From Promethearchaeota archaeon (GTDB lineage: Archaea; Asgardarchaeota; Lokiarchaeia; Sigyniarchaeales; SOKP01): 43,197 bases of DNA. This document shows, one piece after another, positions 1-39,492 of this stretch. The notes under the pieces are model-generated. The model was not told where the DNA came from. It made no database searches and saw only the letters and a program-made list of their open reading frames with translations. How positions within the stretch are numbered: position 1 is the first letter of the stretch; every line of letters starts with the position of its first letter. The stretch spans positions 1 to 43,197 of the forward strand of contig SHMU01000009.1 in assembly GCA_008080765.1 (NCBI GenBank). Direction: 5' to 3'. Both the position numbers and the translations under genes were made by a program.

Positions 1-237
1 GACGTACGGCTTCACCTCGACAATGATGGAAAGGCTTTTTCTTCCCAATGCTATCACTCCTACCCTACGGAGTACCACGATAGCGGGAGACAGGGCAACG
101 GTCAGGTGCAAGAACTTGGCGTCAACCGAAGGTGTCATGACCACTCCATCGTAGCGGGATTTCTCCACGCTCAGTCTGGTAAACTAGGGCGTTCGTGTTG
201 ACACGAAGCCCATCCCTTTAGGGATGGGTAGTTCACT
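1..237 (-). mobile_element. Truncated end of a palindromic IS200/IS605-like non-autonomous element (copy 1)
   Basis: This GC-rich block stands out sharply from the AT-rich surroundings and has no convincing ORF. Read on the minus strand it begins AGTGAACTACCC and runs into a hairpin at 209-228 with 8-bp perfect arms and a 4-nt loop. A second hairpin and a third follow. The same ordered structure and much of the sequence recur on the plus strand at 37128-37507. The subterminal palindrome and the TAGTTCAC end resemble IS200/IS605-family ends, the kind that carry TnpB guide-RNA scaffolds. The window edge cuts this copy, so a neighbouring tnpB outside the window cannot be excluded. It could therefore be the 3' end of a full element and not a solo one. 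Confidence 0.7.
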
Positions 238-27741: not shown

Positions 27742-28566
27742 TCAAGTGTTTCTTTCCTCATTAGATTTAGATTCTTCAGAGTGCAAAATATATTCCTCTA
27801 ATCGTTTTAATCTTTTTTCAAAATTAGCCAGAGAGATTGAATAGGGGTCAGGCAAATCACCGTGAGAAAGATCCACCTTATGAATTTTTTCACCCTCTCG
27901 TGAAATAATTTTTCCCGGGACTCCTACGACCACAGAATTTGCCGGAACATCCTCAATAACTACGGAATTAGCGCCAATCTTTACGTTATCATTTATTTTA
28001 ATTGCTCCTAATAATTTTGCACCAGTTCCAACCACTACATTATTTCCTAATGTGGGATGACGCTTTACAGGCTTATTAGTAGTTCCTCCCAGCACTACAC
28101 CTTGATATAAGGTGACATTATCTCCAATTTCGGAAGTCTCTCCAATAACAACACCGCCTCCATGATCGATAAAAAATTCCGAACCGATTTTTGCCCCCGG
28201 ATGTATTTCAATACCCGTAATTTGGCGTGCGATTTCTGAAAGATAGCGGGGGATAAAAGGCATCTTAATAACCCAAAAGAAGTGTGCGATCCGATATAGC
28301 AATACAGCTTTAATTCCCGGATAACTGGTGAGCACTTCTAAAATGCTATGAGCAGCAGGATCTTTTTTAAAAGCAGAATTGACATCAGAAATAAAAAAAT
28401 TCAAGATTTTTTGTAAGGTATCATCAAGTACATCTCTTTGAATATCTTCTATATTGAAATCTATGGTTGAGATGCACTCAACGCAATAATTATGTTGTTC
28501 TTCCGATTCCGAACCAATTTTTTTTCCACAATTTAAACATTTTAAAAAATCTTTCAAAAAATTCAC
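27742..28566 (-). CDS. cysE: Serine O-acetyltransferase with N-terminal zinc-ribbon extension
   Basis: Residues ~45-230 are a left-handed beta-helix serine acetyltransferase: [43 protein letters not shown] and YQGVVLGGT, all typical of the short EpsC/CysE type. It acetylates serine for CysK encoded downstream. Unusual is the N-terminus: C10-x2-C13 and C28-x2-C31 form a small zinc ribbon that normal CysE proteins lack. The C-terminus also carries a charged helical tail ([17 protein letters not shown]) of about 30 residues. The ribbon may regulate or tether the enzyme. The ATG start is supported because the ribbon starts right after it. Confidence 0.9.
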
Positions 28567-28989: not shown

Positions 28990-29487
28990 ATGATTAGGAA
29001 TATATTTATTATAAAAAACGGGCTTGCCTTAGTAAAGCTTCATTTTGGCGAATGTCATTCCTTAAAACAAGTTGATAACCTAATTGCAGCATTTATTAGT
29101 AGTTTAGATTCTTATTCTAAAAAGGCAATGGGAGCTTCAATAAAAAATATAACACTTGGGAATTATATATTTTATTTAATGAAAGATGATCTTAGATCTA
29201 ATTTACTCTATGTGTGTATTTTGGATAATAATGATAGTGATGCTGATGTTCAATTTAAGATGGAAAAAATCGCAGAGCTATTTTATAATGAATTTGCTTC
29301 GGTAATTGAAAATTTTAATGGAGAAATAAGTAGATTTGGAGCTTTTAAAAAAAAATTACTTGAGATGAATTTAGCTAAAAAAAATTGTGGCGGACGGCCC
29401 GAATGTGAGGGATGTCCAAATAGCTCTCGGGTTCCGGGCTTTTTAAATTTCTTCAAAAAGAGAGGCAGAATTTTCTCAAAAGAATAA
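28990..29487 (+). CDS. Longin/roadblock-like small protein with Cys-rich tail
   Basis: A 165-aa protein beginning IRNIFIIKNGLALVKLHFGE. It continues with a helix (LIAAFISSLDSYSKKAMG), strands (IKNITLGNYIFYLMKD and NLLYVCILDNND) and a long helix (FKMEKIAELFYNEFASVIENF). This beta-beta-alpha-beta-beta-beta-alpha order, with F..G..L at the start, resembles the longin-like domains that Asgard archaea encode in large numbers and that in eukaryotes act with small GTPases in membrane traffic. It ends with CGGRPECEGCPNSS, a possible metal-binding knuckle, and a basic tail. Family assignment is by pattern only. It has no operon partner. Confidence 0.5.
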   Translation: MIRNIFIIKNGLALVKLHFGECHSLKQVDNLIAAFISSLDSYSKKAMGASIKNITLGNYIFYLMKDDLRSNLLYVCILDNNDSDADVQFKMEKIAELFYNEFASVIENFNGEISRFGAFKKKLLEMNLAKKNCGGRPECEGCPNSSRVPGFLNFFKKRGRIFSKE

Positions 29488-31153: not shown

Positions 31154-32302
31154 TTAGTAAGAACCAAACTCTTGAATACCCTTAAATAATGCAATGATAT
31201 TTTCGGGTTTTTGATCTAATAACCAATTAGTAGGACCAGGAATATATCTTCCATTCTTTCCAAGAGTCTGAATTTTGTGTTTGATATCTTTTCGTACCTC
31301 ATTGGGTGTGCCGTTTACTAATAAATCAGAATCATCAACAGTTCCAAGTAAAGTTATCTCAGGAAATTTATTTCGATATAACTCTAAATTATTCAGATGT
31401 GGTTGTAAAGAATCTATTCCATCTATCCCCAATTCAACGAAGTCAGGAAATAATTCTTCGATAGCGCCGCAACAATGTAAAAGAAATTTAATACCCGCAT
31501 CATGGACCATATCTACATATTTCTTTAAAATTGGTTTGAAAAACTTTTGCCATTGTCTCAATGGGAGTTGTAGCCCATTATTATGTCCAATATCATTGCC
31601 AATCATAATGACATCAGGTTTAGTTTTTAACAATAATTCAAGCGATTTTTGTTGGATATTCTCCCAGAGAAAATTTATATGTTTCTCTAAGAATCTTGGA
31701 TCTTTTCGTGCTAATTTTGCAAAATTTAAATAACCAATACTCAGCACGCACTTTTCAAAAGGACCATTGATACCTGAAGCGACGACTATATCATATTTTT
31801 TCATCTTTCTACGATTTTTTGATAATATTCGAAATCGTGATTTATCTGGCTTTTGATCCTCTATTCGTTCCCAAAAAGCTTCTATCTTTTCTTTTGTAGT
31901 CAAAGAAGGACCCATATACCAATATGATGGAATACCATCATCACTTACTATAAATTTATAAATCTGTCCGCCATAACTTATAAGCTCATCGGGATTTTCT
32001 CCTCTTTCAAGCTGGACGGGTTCTACAACTTCCCAGCATAAATCGATTTTCGCATCTAATCCTCCCTCATATATATCAGGAGATGAGAATTTTGCCAATA
32101 AAGGTTGAGTATTGAGGAATCGTGGGGAAAGATCATCATTCAAAAAATGTTCAATATCTTTCTCTGTTAGGGCATATGGAGAGTCCATAAAAAGATCAAT
32201 AAATTTAAAATCAGCTCCTAAACATATACTTGGCACGCGGTCCGGAATTTCTCCTTCTAAAACCATATTTATTCTTTCAAAAGCACTCAGACTGTTTTCC
32301 AT
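31154..32302 (-). CDS. Uroporphyrinogen-decarboxylase-like methyltransferase (MtaA/CmuA type), HCCG variant
   Basis: A 382-aa URO-D superfamily TIM barrel. The entry FERINMVLEGEIPDRVP and the region FLLHCCGAIEELFPDFVELG are those of MtaA/MtbA/CmuA-type cobalamin-dependent methyltransferases. His276 and Cys278 form the H-x-C half of the usual zinc site that activates a thiol acceptor. I do not see the third Cys ligand near the C-terminus, where the sequence reads YIPGPTNWLL. It starts directly after the stop codon of the SCP-2-like gene (TGA ATG), so the two are translationally coupled. It is probably the last gene of a four-gene operon with a GPH transporter. Confidence 0.8.
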   Translation of the reverse strand: MENSLSAFERINMVLEGEIPDRVPSICLGADFKFIDLFMDSPYALTEKDIEHFLNDDLSPRFLNTQPLLAKFSSPDIYEGGLDAKIDLCWEVVEPVQLERGENPDELISYGGQIYKFIVSDDGIPSYWYMGPSLTTKEKIEAFWERIEDQKPDKSRFRILSKNRRKMKKYDIVVASGINGPFEKCVLSIGYLNFAKLARKDPRFLEKHINFLWENIQQKSLELLLKTKPDVIMIGNDIGHNNGLQLPLRQWQKFFKPILKKYVDMVHDAGIKFLLHCCGAIEELFPDFVELGIDGIDSLQPHLNNLELYRNKFPEITLLGTVDDSDLLVNGTPNEVRKDIKHKIQTLGKNGRYIPGPTNWLLDQKPENIIALFKGIQEFGSY

Positions 32303-32659
32303 TCAGAATACACTCCCAATTTTTCCTAAAATTGCTAAAATGTTGTCGTTTTTAATTTGAATAATTCCTTCAGAGAGTCCCTTAAGAATACTAGTTACAT
32401 CAGCCAAAAGATAATCGGATGGTATCGTGATATACATATTGGTGGGAATACGGTTAATATCCTCAACTTTTCTAATTTCTTCCAAGATTTCAATTTTAAA
32501 ATCTCCGTTTTCAATAGCTACCAAGAATGCAGGAGGAGCATCAGTAATAAGAAATAAAATCCTTGCATCAGGTATTTCTCTCTTAAGAATTCCAAATTTT
32601 TTAAGAACCCATAAACCTGAATAAATAATTGCTGGAAACCCTGTATATAAAGAATTCAT
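32303..32659 (-). CDS. Small SCP-2-like sterol/lipid-carrier-type protein
   Basis: A 118-aa protein. The strand pattern DARILFLITDAPPAFLVAIE / GDFKIEILE / NMYITIPSDYLLADVTSILKG / IIQIKNDNILAILGKIGSVF resembles the SCP-2 sterol-transfer fold, in which a five-stranded sheet and helices make a hydrophobic pocket. The first 25 residues are hydrophobic. It is followed with no gap by the URO-D-like methyltransferase gene, so the two proteins are probably made in step. A role in binding a hydrophobic methylated substrate is a guess. Family confidence is moderate. Confidence 0.5.
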   Translation of the reverse strand: MNSLYTGFPAIIYSGLWVLKKFGILKREIPDARILFLITDAPPAFLVAIENGDFKIEILEEIRKVEDINRIPTNMYITIPSDYLLADVTSILKGLSEGIIQIKNDNILAILGKIGSVF

Positions 32660-32693
32660 TTTTAATATCTAATTTTGTTTCTAAAATTTTATT

Positions 32694-33047
32694 TTAATTT
32701 TGCTTTATTATTTTTTTGATTTTTATCTTAATTAAAGTAAAAAAATGGATTGAATTGATTACAGCGTATTTTATTTTCTCTACTTGATTGTTTAGTTTTA
32801 TTCCTAATTTTTCTTCCTTTTTATCTTGTATGGTTTTAAAAACTTGCAAAAAGGCATTTAGAAATAAGAATATGAATATGAAAATGTACATGTAAATGTA
32901 TATGTAAATGTATATGTAAATGTAAATGAATAGTATTTGTAAATAATCTATTCCCATCTTCATAATTGGTTCTATGAAATAGTCCAATATTTTTTTCTCC
33001 CATAGACTTGAAGAAAGACTCGCAAATGTGCTTTCTAAATTATCCAT
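32694..33047 (-). CDS. Small membrane protein with (Ile-Tyr/Phe)n transmembrane helix
   Basis: A 117-aa ORF located in order and on strand between the transporter and the SCP-2-like gene (gaps 39 and 34 bp), so it fits the operon. Residues 1-38 are soluble-looking (MDNLESTFASLSSSLWEKKI). A long hydrophobic stretch follows, with IYIYIYIYIYIYMYIFIFIF. Then comes NAFLQVFKTIQDKKEEKLGIK, and the end is basic. The repeat stretch is written by a hexanucleotide repeat. The flanking sequence on both sides reads as normal protein, which argues for a real gene and against a chance ORF. Function unknown. Confidence 0.55.
   Translation of the reverse strand: MDNLESTFASLSSSLWEKKILDYFIEPIMKMGIDYLQILFIYIYIYIYIYIYMYIFIFIFLFLNAFLQVFKTIQDKKEEKLGIKLNNQVEKIKYAVINSIHFFTLIKIKIKKIIKQN
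32868..32933 (-). repeat. Hexanucleotide tandem repeat, about 11 units
   Basis: On the plus strand the units read GAATAT, GAATAT, GAAAAT, GTACAT, GTAAAT, GTATAT, GTAAAT, GTATAT, GTAAAT, GTAAAT, GAATAG. On the minus strand each unit encodes Ile-Tyr or Ile-Phe (one Met-Tyr) in the frame of the small membrane protein. Confidence 0.85.
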
Positions 33048-33086
33048 ATTCTTTTCTTATAATACAGTTATTATAATTAGGTCTTT

Positions 33087-34511
33087 TTATAAGTTAATTT
33101 GTTTTAGTTGCTCTTGTATTCGTAATTTCTTTTCTCCATACATATCATAAAACATTAAAAAGAAAATTCCCGCAATAATGCAAAGAATGCCACCGATCAG
33201 CCCACTATGAATTCTTACCCCTAAAACCGCAATGCCTACTTGGTACTCCGCAATTGGATCAAATCCAGTAAATACATGAATTGCTGCAATCGCTCCTGCT
33301 GCAATCATATAGGAAAATCTGAAAAAGAAATTCGTCACCCCTTGTAAAGTTGCCTCTTGATGTCTGCCTAAAGCAGCCGTAATTTCATCATAAGTATCAG
33401 AAATTATAGGCATAAGCAGAACTGCAGAAGCACCATATAAAAATCCCGCAATACTATAATAAATCACATATTCCAAAACAAATCTACCCCACATAAAAGG
33501 TAAAAAGGCGCAGCCAAGCAATATGTAGCCCATTCCAAACGTTTTAGCATGACCAATCTTTTTTCCAACCTTAATCCATACCGGAATAGAAACTAAAAAC
33601 CCAAGAATAAAACCCATTTGAGAAATCATGCTTACACTAATATCTGCTCTTAATACATCCGTTATGAAGAGAAGAGTAGATAAATAATTTAAATTATAGG
33701 CCACGCTAAAACTTAAATAGGCAAATACATATACAAGAAAATTCTTATTTGTTACAGCAGTCTTTAAAACTTTTTTTAGCGAAACCGGATTTTTGGTTGA
33801 TGTTTCACATCCAGAAATATATCGTTCAGTAAGAGCTTTAGGTTCAATCATTCCGGGAATAATTAATACACTGTTTGCAAGTAAGATGATTAATGCTACA
33901 AAGGCAGCTGTCGCATACGAACCTAGATTCCCTTGCTGAATGAATAGTGGAATTACTAATGCAGTTGCAACAAATGTGCCAAGTGTTGAAAATATTAACG
34001 CAGAAGCTCCGATTTTTCTCCGATCTGAATCAGTCCTAAAAATTGATACTGACGCAGCAGTGTAATTTGAATTAAAAATAGTGTAGAAAAGATCATATAA
34101 GCATACCACGATTACAAAATAAATGAAAATTGGCCAAGGTGTCGACGTAGCATCAACGCTTGGAGGAAAATAGATGAAAAAGAACATTATTGAGGTTCCA
34201 AAAGCTCCTGCAAGTATCCATATCGTTCTTAATCCAAACTTTCTGCTCCATGAACGTGGTTTCTCGGTAAAATAAGCCAATAGCGGGTCATTAATCGCAT
34301 TCCATATGCTAAAAATTGTATAGGCTAAGGCAATCAGTATAACATTAAGCAATATTTCTTTTTCATAGAAATAGAATACAACTTGTCCAAAAAATGCTAA
34401 AAAAAAGCTATCCATAAACCATGCCGCAGAATAAGATAAAAATTTCCCTTTGGAATACTTTTGGCTATCTTCTAAACAGAATCCTTGTGTCGAATCGTTA
34501 GTTTCAGTCAT
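33087..34511 (-). CDS. GPH-family (MelB-like, MFS_2) transporter 1
   Basis: A 474-aa polytopic protein with about twelve transmembrane segments. The loop after TM2, WNAINDPLLAYFTEK, matches the N-D-P signature of the glycoside-pentoside-hexuronide:cation symporter family. The N-terminal FLSYSAAWFMDSF and the central loop KNPVSLKKVLKTAVTNKNFL also fit. Such proteins import sugars or other small solutes with Na+ or H+. It leads a minus-strand operon that includes a URO-D-like methyltransferase, so the cargo may be a methylated compound. Expression is probably set by the 150-bp divergent promoter at 34512-34661. Confidence 0.85.
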   Translation of the reverse strand: MTETNDSTQGFCLEDSQKYSKGKFLSYSAAWFMDSFFLAFFGQVVFYFYEKEILLNVILIALAYTIFSIWNAINDPLLAYFTEKPRSWSRKFGLRTIWILAGAFGTSIMFFFIYFPPSVDATSTPWPIFIYFVIVVCLYDLFYTIFNSNYTAASVSIFRTDSDRRKIGASALIFSTLGTFVATALVIPLFIQQGNLGSYATAAFVALIILLANSVLIIPGMIEPKALTERYISGCETSTKNPVSLKKVLKTAVTNKNFLVYVFAYLSFSVAYNLNYLSTLLFITDVLRADISVSMISQMGFILGFLVSIPVWIKVGKKIGHAKTFGMGYILLGCAFLPFMWGRFVLEYVIYYSIAGFLYGASAVLLMPIISDTYDEITAALGRHQEATLQGVTNFFFRFSYMIAAGAIAAIHVFTGFDPIAEYQVGIAVLGVRIHSGLIGGILCIIAGIFFLMFYDMYGEKKLRIQEQLKQINL

Positions 34512-34661
34512 TTTTTTTTATTAATTTTTATTCTGTTAAATGATATATAGTAGATATATTTTTAAATGTTTGGGATAGTATTTAAGTAGTTAAATGTTCA
34601 CAATTATAAATATATAAATTTATATACATATTATATAAATATTAATAAAAAAGGTTTTAAA
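34512..34661. promoter_or_regulatory. Divergent promoter region with TATA-like and repeated TTAAATGT words
   Basis: This spacer separates transporter 1 from the HLDG-type URO-D protein. A TATA-like TTATATAAAT at 34631-34640 lies about 25 bp before the plus-strand ATG, and minus-strand TATATATC-like DNA lies at about 34541-34560. TTAAATG occurs three times, at 34536-34542, 34562-34568 and 34590-34596, at a spacing of 26 and 28 bp. The last two extend to TTAAATGT. These may be operators for the winged-helix protein encoded at 36020. Confidence 0.45.
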
Positions 34662-35849
34662 ATGATATTTGAAGATAATGATATTCAACAAACCAAGGAT
34701 CGTTTAAGTGCATGGTGGAATAACGAAGGATTAGACAGACCATGTATTGGTTTTAATTTTCCTTTTACAAATTCAAAAATTACCAGTGTAGATGAGATCA
34801 CAGACTTTTTTATGTCTTTTTGCTTGGCAAAGAATCCAGATGGTATTAAAAGCTGCATGGACAAATTTGAAGAATTAAAAGAAAATTTATATGCAGGAGG
34901 AGAAAGTATCTATAGTTTTAGACCTAATTATGGTGCTGGCTCTTTGGCTGCTGTATTTGGAGTTGAACCCGAATATATGAAGGGTTCAGATAAATTTGGA
35001 CCTTTAGCAGAAACAGTATGGTATCTTAAAGAAATGGCTCCCGATGAGGCAATAACCCTTTTAGAAGAGACCAAATTAGATAAAAATAATGAATGGTATT
35101 CACGATTCCTAAATATTGTTGAATACGCTGCAAAAAGAGCAGAGAAAGGAAATTATACTATTGCAATGATTGATTTAGGAGGTGTGCTTGACGTTCTATC
35201 CTCTTTATTAGGACCAAAAAATATTATACTGAATATGAAAAGAAATCCTGAGCTTATTGAAAATGCATGTACTCTTATCTTAGAAAAAGAGAAAAGAGTC
35301 TTTTCTGATCTTCAAACAATTATTGATAAGCATTCTCTAGGTTGTAATAGTTGGCTAAATTTATGGTGTCCTAAACATTATTATCCTGTTCAAAGTGACT
35401 TTAGTGCCATGTTATCCCCGAAGTGGTTCAAGAGATTTGCACTCCCATATATTAAGGAGCAGGCCGAGGATCTTGACTTTGCGGTATATCATCTTGATGG
35501 AGAAAATCAAATTGCTCATTTAAACGATCTCTTAAGCTTAGACTGTTTAGATGGGATTCAATGGGTACCCGGCGCAGGAAAAGAAATTACTTCCAGTATG
35601 CAATGGATGCCATTATATGAAAAAATTCAAGCTGCTGGAAAGAAAGTTATTCTTACCAATTTTGAAGACTCTACGATGATTCCTCTCTTCTATGAAAAAT
35701 TAGATCCCGATCTTCTCTATATATCAAGATTTTTTTTAGATCGTTTTAGAGCAGAATTTTATCTTCCCGAATTTATCGGTGGCAAGGGCGGAAAAGGCAA
35801 TTTTCGAAAATTCAAAAGAGAAAGAAAAAAAGAAATTAAAATGGAATAA
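34662..35849 (+). CDS. Uroporphyrinogen-decarboxylase-like protein, HLDG variant
   Basis: A 395-aa protein of the URO-D superfamily branch often labelled 'trimethylamine corrinoid protein 2' in databases. It starts with a TKDRLSAWWNNEGLDRPCIG module. Its barrel contains IDLGGVLDVLSSLLGPKN, SPKWFKRFALPYIKEQAEDL and FAVYHLDGENQIAHL. The zinc-ligand motif H-x-C-G of MtaA-type enzymes is H277-L-D279-G here, so a Zn-thiolate mechanism is unlikely in its usual form. It ends with GGKGGKGNFRKFKRERKKE, a basic tail that may bind nucleic acid or membrane. It is divergent from transporter 1. Confidence 0.72.
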   Translation: MIFEDNDIQQTKDRLSAWWNNEGLDRPCIGFNFPFTNSKITSVDEITDFFMSFCLAKNPDGIKSCMDKFEELKENLYAGGESIYSFRPNYGAGSLAAVFGVEPEYMKGSDKFGPLAETVWYLKEMAPDEAITLLEETKLDKNNEWYSRFLNIVEYAAKRAEKGNYTIAMIDLGGVLDVLSSLLGPKNIILNMKRNPELIENACTLILEKEKRVFSDLQTIIDKHSLGCNSWLNLWCPKHYYPVQSDFSAMLSPKWFKRFALPYIKEQAEDLDFAVYHLDGENQIAHLNDLLSLDCLDGIQWVPGAGKEITSSMQWMPLYEKIQAAGKKVILTNFEDSTMIPLFYEKLDPDLLYISRFFLDRFRAEFYLPEFIGGKGGKGNFRKFKRERKKEIKME

Positions 35850-36019
35850 AATTAGAAAAATACATCAGTAACCTTAAAGCCAATGCATATAAATTTTAAT
35901 ATATCCTTTTTATTATAAATTAAGGAAATAATTCACAAGTTTATCAGATATTGTAATGAAATTCATCTTGTAAAATACTGATCAGAAAATTTGAATTAAG
36001 TAGAACTGAGGGTATCAAA

Positions 36020-36805
36020 ATGGAAGAAATTAAAAATAAATTAAATCAAAAAATTCAAGTTTTAAAATTGTTAAATACAGTAACACGTTTGAGAATTATT
36101 TTAGTCCTTATGGTGTATGGAAAGCAAAGTCTTGCTCAATTAAGGGATAAGACAGGGAAAACGAAGGCAACCATCACCAATCATATCAAAAAATTTGAAA
36201 ATTTAGGAATCATTAACACCTCAAGAAAAGATGCGAAAGGATCAATTGATGCAAAAGTATATGAATTAATTCCGGGTTTCATAGATCTCATTAAACTCAA
36301 TCCAGAAGATATTAATTTGCTTTCAGAGGAAGAACAAAAGATCGTGCTTAAGTTCTTTATTTTACGGGATAAGTGGATGTTTGAAATGATGAGAAATATA
36401 TTTCAACTGCTTACTCTTTATTATTCCGAATTAAAAAATCAGGACATAGATTTTGAGTCTAAAGAAACTGTGGAATCAGATTTCGAAAAAAAAGAAGAAT
36501 CTGACTCTAAGAAAGATGATTTATTTGATTTTAAAAATCTTGAAGAATTTAAGAATCATTATTTTGAATCTATTGCGAAATATCAAATTCTCTTCTTAAA
36601 TGAGGGAGCGAAACGATACTATGATGCTCTGCTTATGGAAAGTAAAACCAAATTACATGAAAAAATTAAAAAAGATGATGACCTAATAAATGACTATAAA
36701 CGTCCCTATTTAGTATTTGATACGATGATACCTTTGGAAAATATCCTAAGATTTGATCCCGAAACGCGACAATTTATCCGATTTTTTAAGGTTTTTGATA
36801 AATAG
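36020..36805 (+). CDS. ArsR-like winged-helix transcriptional regulator
   Basis: The N-terminal ~95 residues form a winged helix. LNTVTRLRIILVLMVYGKQS is helices 1-2, LAQLRDKTGKTKATITNHIKKFENLGII is the helix-turn-helix, and a wing follows (SIDAKVYELIPGF). The rest (to 261 aa) is a charged helical sensing or dimer domain, with an acidic linker at about 145-170 (ESDFEKKEESDSKKDD). It has no obvious metal site. It lies downstream of the HLDG-type URO-D gene on the same strand and is the only regulator in the methyltransferase region, so it probably controls it. GAGGG lies 10-14 bp before the ATG, a possible ribosome-binding site. Confidence 0.78.
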   Translation: MEEIKNKLNQKIQVLKLLNTVTRLRIILVLMVYGKQSLAQLRDKTGKTKATITNHIKKFENLGIINTSRKDAKGSIDAKVYELIPGFIDLIKLNPEDINLLSEEEQKIVLKFFILRDKWMFEMMRNIFQLLTLYYSELKNQDIDFESKETVESDFEKKEESDSKKDDLFDFKNLEEFKNHYFESIAKYQILFLNEGAKRYYDALLMESKTKLHEKIKKDDDLINDYKRPYLVFDTMIPLENILRFDPETRQFIRFFKVFDK

Positions 36806-37127
36806 AACCCCGGGAATTATTATTAAAATGCTAAACTTTCTTATTTATTTTGTATTGGATTAAATTATCATTTTTTAAGCTATTTCTGATGATTTAATCG
36901 GCATTTGATTTCAACATTTAGTTCTTTATATATGCAGTCAAACATTTAAATAGTATCAATATTTAATATATCTTAGGTTAAAATTGGTTATACAGAAAAT
37001 GTGATGTTCATTTAGTTCAATTAAAGATTTGAACATTAGGAGCAGTATTAACCATTTTATTAAAGTCAAAACATGCATATATTTTCAATATTATAATCTA
37101 TGAGTTAGAATGGATTCAAAAATTTAA
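36806..37127. promoter_or_regulatory. Spacer with candidate operator, upstream of the corrinoid gene
   Basis: A 322-bp AT-rich spacer ahead of the inserted palindromic element. It holds ACATTTAA (36942-36949, the reverse complement of TTAAATGT) and AAATGTGATGTTCATTT at 36997-37013. The latter matches 13 of 17 positions of the perfect palindrome at 41529-41545. No ORF is seen. Confidence 0.4.
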
Positions 37128-37507
37128 GTGAACTACCCTCGCCTGAAGGCGAAGGCTCTGTGTGTCTACGGAGCTCTTAGTTCACCAGACTGAGCATGGA
37201 GAGATTCATGCTACGATGGATCGGTCATGAAACCTTCGGTTGCCGCCAAGCCCTTGCACCAGACTGTTGCTCTGCAATCGATGGTTAATAGCCCCGAAGG
37301 GTAGGGGTAGTGGCATCGGTTTAACAAGCCTTTCCATCATTGTCGAGGTGAAGTCGGATTCCTTACCTGCTCATGCGGCATGGATACGCACTACTCGATG
37401 AAGCCCCTTTGCGTGAAAACGGGCGGAGGAAGATTTACTCGAGGGAGTATACACTTCACGCAAAACGTCTGATTCCTCTCCCCCTTAAAAGGGGAGTGTT
37501 CTCAGAC
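37128..37507 (+). mobile_element. Complete 380-bp palindromic IS200/IS605-like non-autonomous element (copy 2)
   Basis: This GC-rich, non-coding island starts GTGAACTACCC and has a hairpin at 37136-37155, a second at 37155-37174 and a third at 37193-37212. It ends with GTCTGA...TCAGAC (37467-37507) enclosing a CTCCCC...GGGGAG hairpin. GCGTGAA and TTCACGC at about 37411-37461 also pair. About 240 bp align with the minus strand of 1-237. Three stems differ between the copies by paired changes that keep base pairing. No transposase gene is inside, so movement would need a TnpA supplied in trans. It may produce a structured RNA. Confidence 0.72.
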
Positions 37508-37552
37508 TAAATTTATAAAATAAGAACAGAAATTAATAAATAATAATAAAAT

Positions 37553-37558
37553 GGAGGT
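37553..37558 (+). promoter_or_regulatory. Strong Shine-Dalgarno of the corrinoid-protein gene
   Basis: GGAGGT lies 6 bp before the ATG at 37565 and fixes that start. Most genes in this window show no such motif, which suggests high expression. ATTTATAAAATA at about 37511-37522 could be a TATA box between the element and the gene. Confidence 0.75.
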
Positions 37559-37564
37559 TAAATA

Positions 37565-38194
37565 ATGGAATTTGAAAAACTTACTGAACTCTTAATCGAG
37601 TTAGAAGTTGATGATATTGAGGCAGCCGTAAAAGAGGCATTAGACGAGGGAAAGGACCCATTTAAAGTGCTAAATGCACTTACCAAGGGAATGGATGAAG
37701 TGGGACGGCGCTATGAAGCAAAAGAATATTATCTAACTGAACTGGTATTAGCAGGAGAAACAATGAAAGAAGCTTTCAAAGTATTAAAGCCCGCCTTAGC
37801 AGCTCAAGAAAACATAGAGAGCAAACCCAAAGTTATTTTAGCGACAGTTAAAGGTGACAATCACGATATCGGTAAAAATATTCTGGGCTCATTATTGTTG
37901 AGCTCCGGATTTGAAATCTACGACTTAGGTATGGATGTTGATGAGAATACTATTGTTGATAAAGTGAAAGAGACAGGTGCACAAATAGTTGCGCTAAGTT
38001 CTTTGCTCACGATGACCGTGGAACAAATCGAGGTGGTACATGAAGCCCTTCAAGAAGCCAATCTTCGTGATAAAGTTAAATTAATTGTTGGCGGAGCTCC
38101 CTTAAACGAAGATCTTGCGAAAAAATTGGGTGCAGACGATTTTGCCGAAGATGCTGTAGAGGGTGTAAATCACATAAAAGCACTGGCTCAATAA
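37565..38194 (+). CDS. Corrinoid (cobalamin-binding) methyltransferase protein, MtbC/MttC/MtaC-like
   Basis: A 209-aa cobalamin carrier. Residues 1-85 are the helical cap (DPFKVLNALTKGMDEVGRRYEAKEYYLTEL). Residues 88-205 are the Rossmann-like B12 domain. Its lower-ligand motif D98-x-H100-x2-G103 sits in KGDNHDIGKN, followed by YDLGMDV, ALSSLLTMT and VGGAPLNEDLAKKLGADDFAEDA. It receives a methyl group on cobalt and hands it to a second methyltransferase. It is followed on the same strand by an HSDG-type URO-D protein after 110 bp. It is the only corrinoid protein in the window, so all three URO-D-like proteins may use it. Confidence 0.92.
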   Translation: MEFEKLTELLIELEVDDIEAAVKEALDEGKDPFKVLNALTKGMDEVGRRYEAKEYYLTELVLAGETMKEAFKVLKPALAAQENIESKPKVILATVKGDNHDIGKNILGSLLLSSGFEIYDLGMDVDENTIVDKVKETGAQIVALSSLLTMTVEQIEVVHEALQEANLRDKVKLIVGGAPLNEDLAKKLGADDFAEDAVEGVNHIKALAQ

Positions 38195-38304
38195 GTTTGA
38201 GTAGTTCTTAAATGATGCTCTACCTCTCTATTAATATAATTTTATACAATCTTTTTTGCAAAAATTAAAATCAATATCAAATTTAAAAAATATTATGAGA
38301 AAAA

Positions 38305-39492
38305 ATGGATGCTCAAGAAAGAGTGCTAAAAGCAATTAACCATGAAGAACCGGATAAAGTACCCGCATTTGAAAGTACCATTACAAATAATGGATTAAAG
38401 AAATATTATGGGATTGAAATTGAAAAAAGTGAGATTCAGCTCTATAAAAGCTTGAGCAAACTCGGGAAGAAAGGTGATAGACTCCTTCAAAAAGGCTATT
38501 GCAATAAAAATATAGTTAAATCCGTTATGCGAAATTTCTATGAATTCTGCAAAAGAGCTCACCTAGATCTTGTTCTGAGCATGGGGGCTCTGTTTAATAG
38601 GAAATTGTTAGAGAATGGAGAAGGATTTATCGATGAATTTGGTCGTATTATGAAATTTGAATCATACGTTGATAAAAATGGAATTGAAACTGTAATTGTA
38701 GGATATCATGGAAGTGTAATTAATTCTTTCGAAGATTATGAATCGTGGGAACAACCCGATCCCAATTGGGAAGCGAGACTAATTAATTTCGAAGCGGGAA
38801 GGGAAGTCCAAGAAGAGATGAATAATAGGGTATTTTCTATTCCTGCCATCAGCGCATTAATGGAAGTCACATGGGAGTCTTTTGGCTTAGAAAACTTTTC
38901 TAAGCTTTTTGCGCGGTCGGCTCAAATTAAAAAAGTTTTTGATGATCGCGGCAAATTTACTCTAGAATTAGTGAAAATCCTAGCGGAGCATGATGCAAAG
39001 ATTATTTTGCTCTGGGATGATTATGGGTATAAAAATGGCTTATTCATGAGTCCCAGAAATTATCGGAAGTATGTGTTTCCCTGGATTAAACGCATCTGTG
39101 ATGCCGCCCATAGGATGGATTGTAAAATTATGCTTCATTCGGATGGGGACTTAACGGAGATTCTTGATGACATTGTTAATAGCGGTGTTGACGTTTTAAA
39201 TCCGATTGAACCGACCACTGCAAATCCTGATTATACGATTTGCAACTTAAAAGAAAAATATGGAGATAAATTAACCTTATCGGGAAATATATCACCCATG
39301 CTTCTTGCATCAGGACCAATCCAAGAAATCATATCTTATTCAAAAAGATTAATCAAAGAAATTGCTCCTGGTGGAGGGTTTCTATTCGGCTCTGGACACA
39401 GCATAAATCCCGCAATCCCTCCCCAACATTATGAAGCAATGCAGCAGATAAAAGAACAATATGGTAGTTATCCAATAGACCACAATTTTTAA
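38305..39492 (+). CDS. Uroporphyrinogen-decarboxylase-like methyltransferase, HSDG variant
   Basis: A 395-aa URO-D superfamily barrel starting QERVLKAINHEEPDKVPAFE. The motif region reads KIMLHSDGDLTEILDDIVNSGVDVLNPIEP (shortened: LHSDGDL), so the Cys of the H-x-C zinc site is Asp280. LSGNISPMLLASGP and GGGFLFGSGHSINPAIPPQHY complete the barrel. HSDG-type members are common in anaerobes next to corrinoid proteins and probably move methyl groups between substrate and corrinoid, but their exact reaction is not established. It directly follows the corrinoid gene and is followed by a T-rich repeat array that may end transcription. Confidence 0.8.
   Translation: MDAQERVLKAINHEEPDKVPAFESTITNNGLKKYYGIEIEKSEIQLYKSLSKLGKKGDRLLQKGYCNKNIVKSVMRNFYEFCKRAHLDLVLSMGALFNRKLLENGEGFIDEFGRIMKFESYVDKNGIETVIVGYHGSVINSFEDYESWEQPDPNWEARLINFEAGREVQEEMNNRVFSIPAISALMEVTWESFGLENFSKLFARSAQIKKVFDDRGKFTLELVKILAEHDAKIILLWDDYGYKNGLFMSPRNYRKYVFPWIKRICDAAHRMDCKIMLHSDGDLTEILDDIVNSGVDVLNPIEPTTANPDYTICNLKEKYGDKLTLSGNISPMLLASGPIQEIISYSKRLIKEIAPGGGFLFGSGHSINPAIPPQHYEAMQQIKEQYGSYPIDHNF

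Follow-up and report, generated by a model that had tools for sequence, protein, structure and literature searches.

The gene and its surroundings

The features found in the window, i.e. the whole stretch of 43,197 nucleotides that was analyzed, are collected in Table 1. The intact open reading frame (ORF) under study has 165 codons, starts with ATG and encodes a protein, P0001, with the N-terminus MIRNIFIIKNGLALVKLHFGECHS and the cysteine tail NCGGRPECEGCPN, just as an earlier note made from the sequence alone had described it. Judged from full-length homologues with the same tail elsewhere in the phylum, the frame is a genuine gene and no chance ORF, because a homologue in a Candidatus Lokiarchaeota MAG (L048) is full-length and 50% identical, and because 30 tailed full-length copies occur in 29 of the 228 Asgard genomes searched. 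The Lokiarchaeota homologue also bears out the Asgard origin that the note had proposed.

The P0001 gene stands alone at its locus. Upstream on the opposite strand lies a hexapeptide-repeat, serine acetyltransferase-like gene, and about 420 bases downstream a methyltransferase gene. Further away, a cluster of uroporphyrinogen-decarboxylase-like methyltransferase genes includes a corrinoid protein and an MFS-type transporter; by eye, it is probably concerned with methyl-group metabolism. Two HEARO RNAs (IscB omega-RNA type, RF02033) scored above the Rfam cut-off. No IscB-like ORF follows the forward-strand copy, the corrinoid-protein gene being next; this copy may be a guide-type RNA that stands alone in a Loki genome. 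Of two reverse-strand ORFs, one resembles part of a TnpB-type protein and the other, with its long YIYIYIYI run, is probably no gene.

Table 1. Coordinates of the P0001 gene, its parts and other features of the window
Feature	Position	Strand	Basis
Cys-tailed longin protein P0001, 165 aa (stop 29485-29487)	28990..29487	+	ORF and orthologues
Longin domain (predicted), residues 1-128	28990..29373	+	AF2 (mean pLDDT 56), Foldseek, profiles
FGECHS motif, residues 19-24, b2-a1 loop	29044..29061	+	C22 in 29/30 tailed copies
C22 codon	29053-29055	+	within FGECHS motif
Cys knuckle NCGGRPECEGCPN, residues 132-144	29383..29421	+	conserved across family
C133 codon	29386-29388	+	
C139 codon	29404-29406	+	
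C142 codon	29413-29415	+	
Basic amphipathic C-terminal segment, residues 145-165	29422..29484	+	sequence and AF2
Hexapeptide-repeat, serine acetyltransferase-like gene	27742-28566	-	
Methyltransferase gene	29909	+	
Cluster, probably of methyl-group metabolism	31154-39492		by eye
Corrinoid protein (in cluster)	37565-38194		
HEARO RNA	37128-37358	+	99.7 bits
HEARO RNA	4-236	-	88.4 bits
ORF with long YIYIYIYI run from simple repeat	32694-33047	-	
ORF like C-terminal part of TnpB-type protein with Cys4 ribbon, contig end	42743-43177	-	

Fold of the product

The earlier note had called the protein longin/roadblock-type. Profile matches, the order of strands and helices and Foldseek results, taken together, make a longin fold very likely. 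P0001 alone matched no Pfam longin model. When single members of its family were compared with Pfam (E<=1), 5 of the 24 reached Longin (best 9.6e-4) and 5 of the 24 reached Fuz_longin_1 (best 2.7e-5). The family profile, compared with the PDB, gave MON1 as its best match at a weak 0.007, followed by VAMP7 and Bet5 near 0.1.

Structure prediction and a fold search, which the note had recommended as a check, point the same way. AlphaFold2 (AF2) models of P0001 and its homologue, which rest on two sequences and have mean pLDDT values of 56 and 49, show the identical element order b1b2-a1-b3b4b5-a2-a3, predicted for P0001 as b1 2-9, b2 12-18, a1 25-45, b3 51-56, b4 59-65, b5 72-78, a2 84-107 and a3 117-129. 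Confidence is low, and lowest in the tail, so that no Cys-Cys distance can be read from them. A helix at 148-158 of the C-terminal segment is predicted, again with low confidence; the basic amphipathic character of this segment is shared by several Loki copies and is weak or absent elsewhere. Using the first model, Foldseek returned mostly eukaryotic longins, with chains of TRAPP, VAMP7, Sec22b, AP and Ykt6 among them; E values were about 1e-4 to 1e-3, and TM, scaled by the length of the target, reached 0.70 over the longin body. Roadblock chains mostly ranked below the longins and both models are without a helix ahead of the first strand; the roadblock/LC7 fold, and with it that half of the earlier description, was rejected. 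Two narrower identities were also set aside: the roughly 35 residues after a3 are too short for the SNARE motif of a longin SNARE, and P0001, with 165 aa and one domain, is no MON1/FUZ/HPS1 protein, i.e. a large Rab GEF subunit with several longin domains.

The cysteine-tailed family

The same tail was sought in other Asgard longins, as the note had advised, with a profile (A1) built from 24 full-length homologues that had themselves been found, in several Asgard families, with one protein query. Over the 228 genomes, tailed copies scored at E 1e-47 or better and other longins came next at 1e-30 and weaker. The 30 tailed copies are spread over five families (f1, f7, f8, f17 and f28 in the anonymous scheme of the search), and A1 members across these families are 24-50% identical to P0001. 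A copy in G187 is cut at a contig end, yet has FGECHS; that in G144 is broken, and the gene is therefore also decaying in places. By this comparison the tail CGGRPECEGC noticed earlier is real and conserved, and is a defining feature of this longin family, no private oddity of P0001. Distribution of the family is patchy. In the tree, copies cluster for the most part with others from their host family, which is easier to reconcile with an old Asgard gene that was often lost than with recent spread. No homologues were found in phages or viral contigs.

Recurrent cysteine columns in A1 are four only: 22 (23/24), 133 (24/24), 139 (24/24) and 142 (23/24). C22 sits between strand 2 and helix 1, and the tail cysteines are spaced C133-x5-C139-x2-C142, which gives the family two motifs, FG-x-C-[HQN]-S in the b2-a1 loop and C-G-x3-[DEN]-C-x2-C after helix a3. 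The "F..G start" of the earlier note is present and is better seen as part of the first of these motifs (residues 19-24), which brings a fourth conserved cysteine, C22 of the body, to the three of the tail. Among all 30 tailed copies, C22 and C142 are each present in 29. The sole tailed copy without C22 (G001) has Trp instead, and an extra Cys three residues after C142 (CEDCPNC); in G060, Tyr replaces C142 with no evident substitute Cys. As for the approximately 36 tail-less longins that were read, nearly all are without a Cys at position 22, the exceptions being G055 and one unsure alignment. The four putative ligand residues thus come and go together, with two exceptions of one residue each (G001 and G060). 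As a separate observation, another tail-less longin group of f16/f17 (L140-L145, in G062, G063, G060, G061, G059 and G055) carries KC[YF]GG-x-TC, a C-x5-C pair located at the b2-a1 loop.

In f28, the longin gene is usually the last of an operon (L090-L097, L116-L139) whose preceding genes encode, in order, a PRTase-like protein (by eye, with no Pfam match), a rubrerythrin-like protein (PF02915, 1e-6) and two proteins for which no Pfam or PDB relatives were found. Most f28 genomes retain genes 1-4 whether or not a longin accompanies them; the longin is thus optional in this operon, which was rejected as a functional link. Four copies at the end of this operon (G222, G217, G191 and G206) stop at helix a3 and have no tail. 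A fifth tail-less relative (G224), on a separate small contig and with a damaged frame start, is nearly the same as the G222 copy. All five are without C22. In the tree they branch at two separate points within the tailed family, and the AU test rejects a grouping of all tailed copies as one clade (p=0.0185, a modest value). On this evidence the loss of C22 went along with that of the three tail cysteines at least twice, two losses being few. The four cysteines are therefore most likely one site, and the zinc or cluster binding that the earlier note had suggested for the tail gains support from their concerted loss.

A putative metal clamp, its alternatives and known systems

The reading that we favor, with moderate confidence, is that P0001 is a single-domain longin whose C-terminal segment is clamped to the body by one metal centre held by four cysteines. 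The b2-a1 loop would supply one ligand, C22, and the knuckle after a3 the other three, C133, C139 and C142; the centre (Zn2+ or a [4Fe-4S] cluster) would fold the C-terminal segment back and fix it onto the longin body. Reasoning from general longin topology, the ends of b2 and a3 should share one sheet edge. The spacing C-x5-C-x2-C with a further Cys at a distance is common among metal sites. As far as conservation allows a judgement, the site probably binds Zn or an Fe-S cluster; zinc is slightly favored, by judgement only. The clamp may set the position of the tail, and hence of a partner-binding or membrane-touching surface.

P0001 would probably act as a dimer-forming adaptor or regulator. 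The fold suggests a dimeric platform and makes GTPase binding plausible; small GTPases are often held by longins and roadblocks (PMC10933270). With TRAPP and other longin platforms as a guide, the likeliest type of partner would be a small GTPase, which is the weakest step of the model. Paralogues in the genome of P0001 include longin-GTPase fusions (L003, L017). No conserved GTPase neighbor was found for the family, GTPase genes being present within 6 kb at 3 of 21 loci; this says little, because in MK-D1 GTPase genes are generally not in operons with longin genes (PMC10933270).

A different use of the four cysteines seems unlikely, namely a switch of redox or thiol type (with disulfides, or as a persulfide carrier) in a protein of sulfur or redox metabolism. 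Some copies do adjoin sulfur-transfer genes: the G083 copy has DUF169-ThiF-TusA, two DsrE genes, a second TusA and a radical SAM gene as neighbors, one G084 copy has DUF169-ThiF-TusA-OsmC-CysK, and CysE/CysK/FdhD genes lie near P0001 (ThiF, OsmC and CysK being assigned by eye); TusA genes are moreover few, 2 to 6 per genome. However, this adjacency was spotted only in hindsight, within a single family and in two of its genomes, and most copies have no sulfur-gene neighbors. Ferredoxin-type genes are no commoner near the family (5/13 loci) than in 20 random regions elsewhere on the contigs carrying the gene (7/20), and the cysteine spacing with its distant fourth member is typical of metal sites.

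That P0001 is an ordinary Asgard longin paralogue, with a cysteine tail useless beyond stability, appears quite unlikely: longins are many in Asgard genomes (41 reported in Loki, PMC10933270) and this family is missing from most genomes (tailed copies in 29 of 228) and broken in some, G144 being one, but in a family whose members share 24-50% identity with P0001 over five host families the cysteines belong to the best conserved positions. We regard as improbable a tail that, in the manner of the VARP Zn-fingernail, serves as a partner-docking microdomain without touching the longin body. Trafficking proteins do contain peptide modules of 10-12 residues with four Cys (PMC7539009), and no firm structure is predicted for the tail; against this, only three cysteines are conserved in the tail, the fourth being the body C22 that is lost with it, and few residues separate the end of a3 (129) from C133. 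Lipidation as a membrane anchor, as in Ykt6, a longin SNARE with lipidated C-terminal cysteines, is highly improbable despite the basic and amphipathic tails of several Loki copies, since the motif lies inside the chain, keeps a constant spacing and includes one Cys of the body, the basic tail is not common to all families, and Lokiarchaeum is listed without prenyltransferases and fatty acid transferases (PMC4917890).

Returning to the metal clamp, it is conceivable, if rather doubtful, that body and tail share a metal or Fe-S centre which controls the longin surface; the protein would then be a GTPase-recruiting platform able to sense metal or redox state, one that an early Asgard ancestor already had and many lineages lost. 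Longin domains belong to the components that connect Asgard archaea with membrane traffic in eukaryotes, and hardly any of the Asgard copies has a known job. A putative built-in metal site, together with a tail-less comparison set, offers a handle on the role of at least one of them, and on whether longin platforms served metabolism or metal sensing besides traffic.

No account of a Cys-tailed longin subfamily was found in the open-access papers searched. Asgard longins are already known, and the variant with four cysteines and a putative clamp is apparently new. P0001 resembles the Asgard longin domains of Loki and Odin (PMC10933270, PMC4917890) in fold and phylum; unlike its family, these other longins are tail-less, and nearly all of those read have no C22 equivalent. 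The first longin domain of MON1/FUZ/HPS1 (PF19036) is both the best curated-family match of single members (2.7e-5) and the best PDB profile match. MON1, however, is a large multi-longin GEF subunit without a Cys tail, and the match to the P0001 family spans residues about 26-96 only. Over the longin body, Foldseek matches P0001 with TRAPP core proteins (Bet5/TRAPPC1, Trs23/TRAPPC4), VAMP7, Sec22b and AP sigma/mu, at a sequence identity of about 10-20%; we know of no cysteine knuckle in any of these. The VARP Zn-fingernail, which binds VPS29 (PMC7539009), is likewise a microdomain, short and rich in Cys, of a trafficking protein, but there all four ligands lie within CHPLCxCxxC on a long flexible linker, whereas P0001 would combine three tail cysteines with one from the body.
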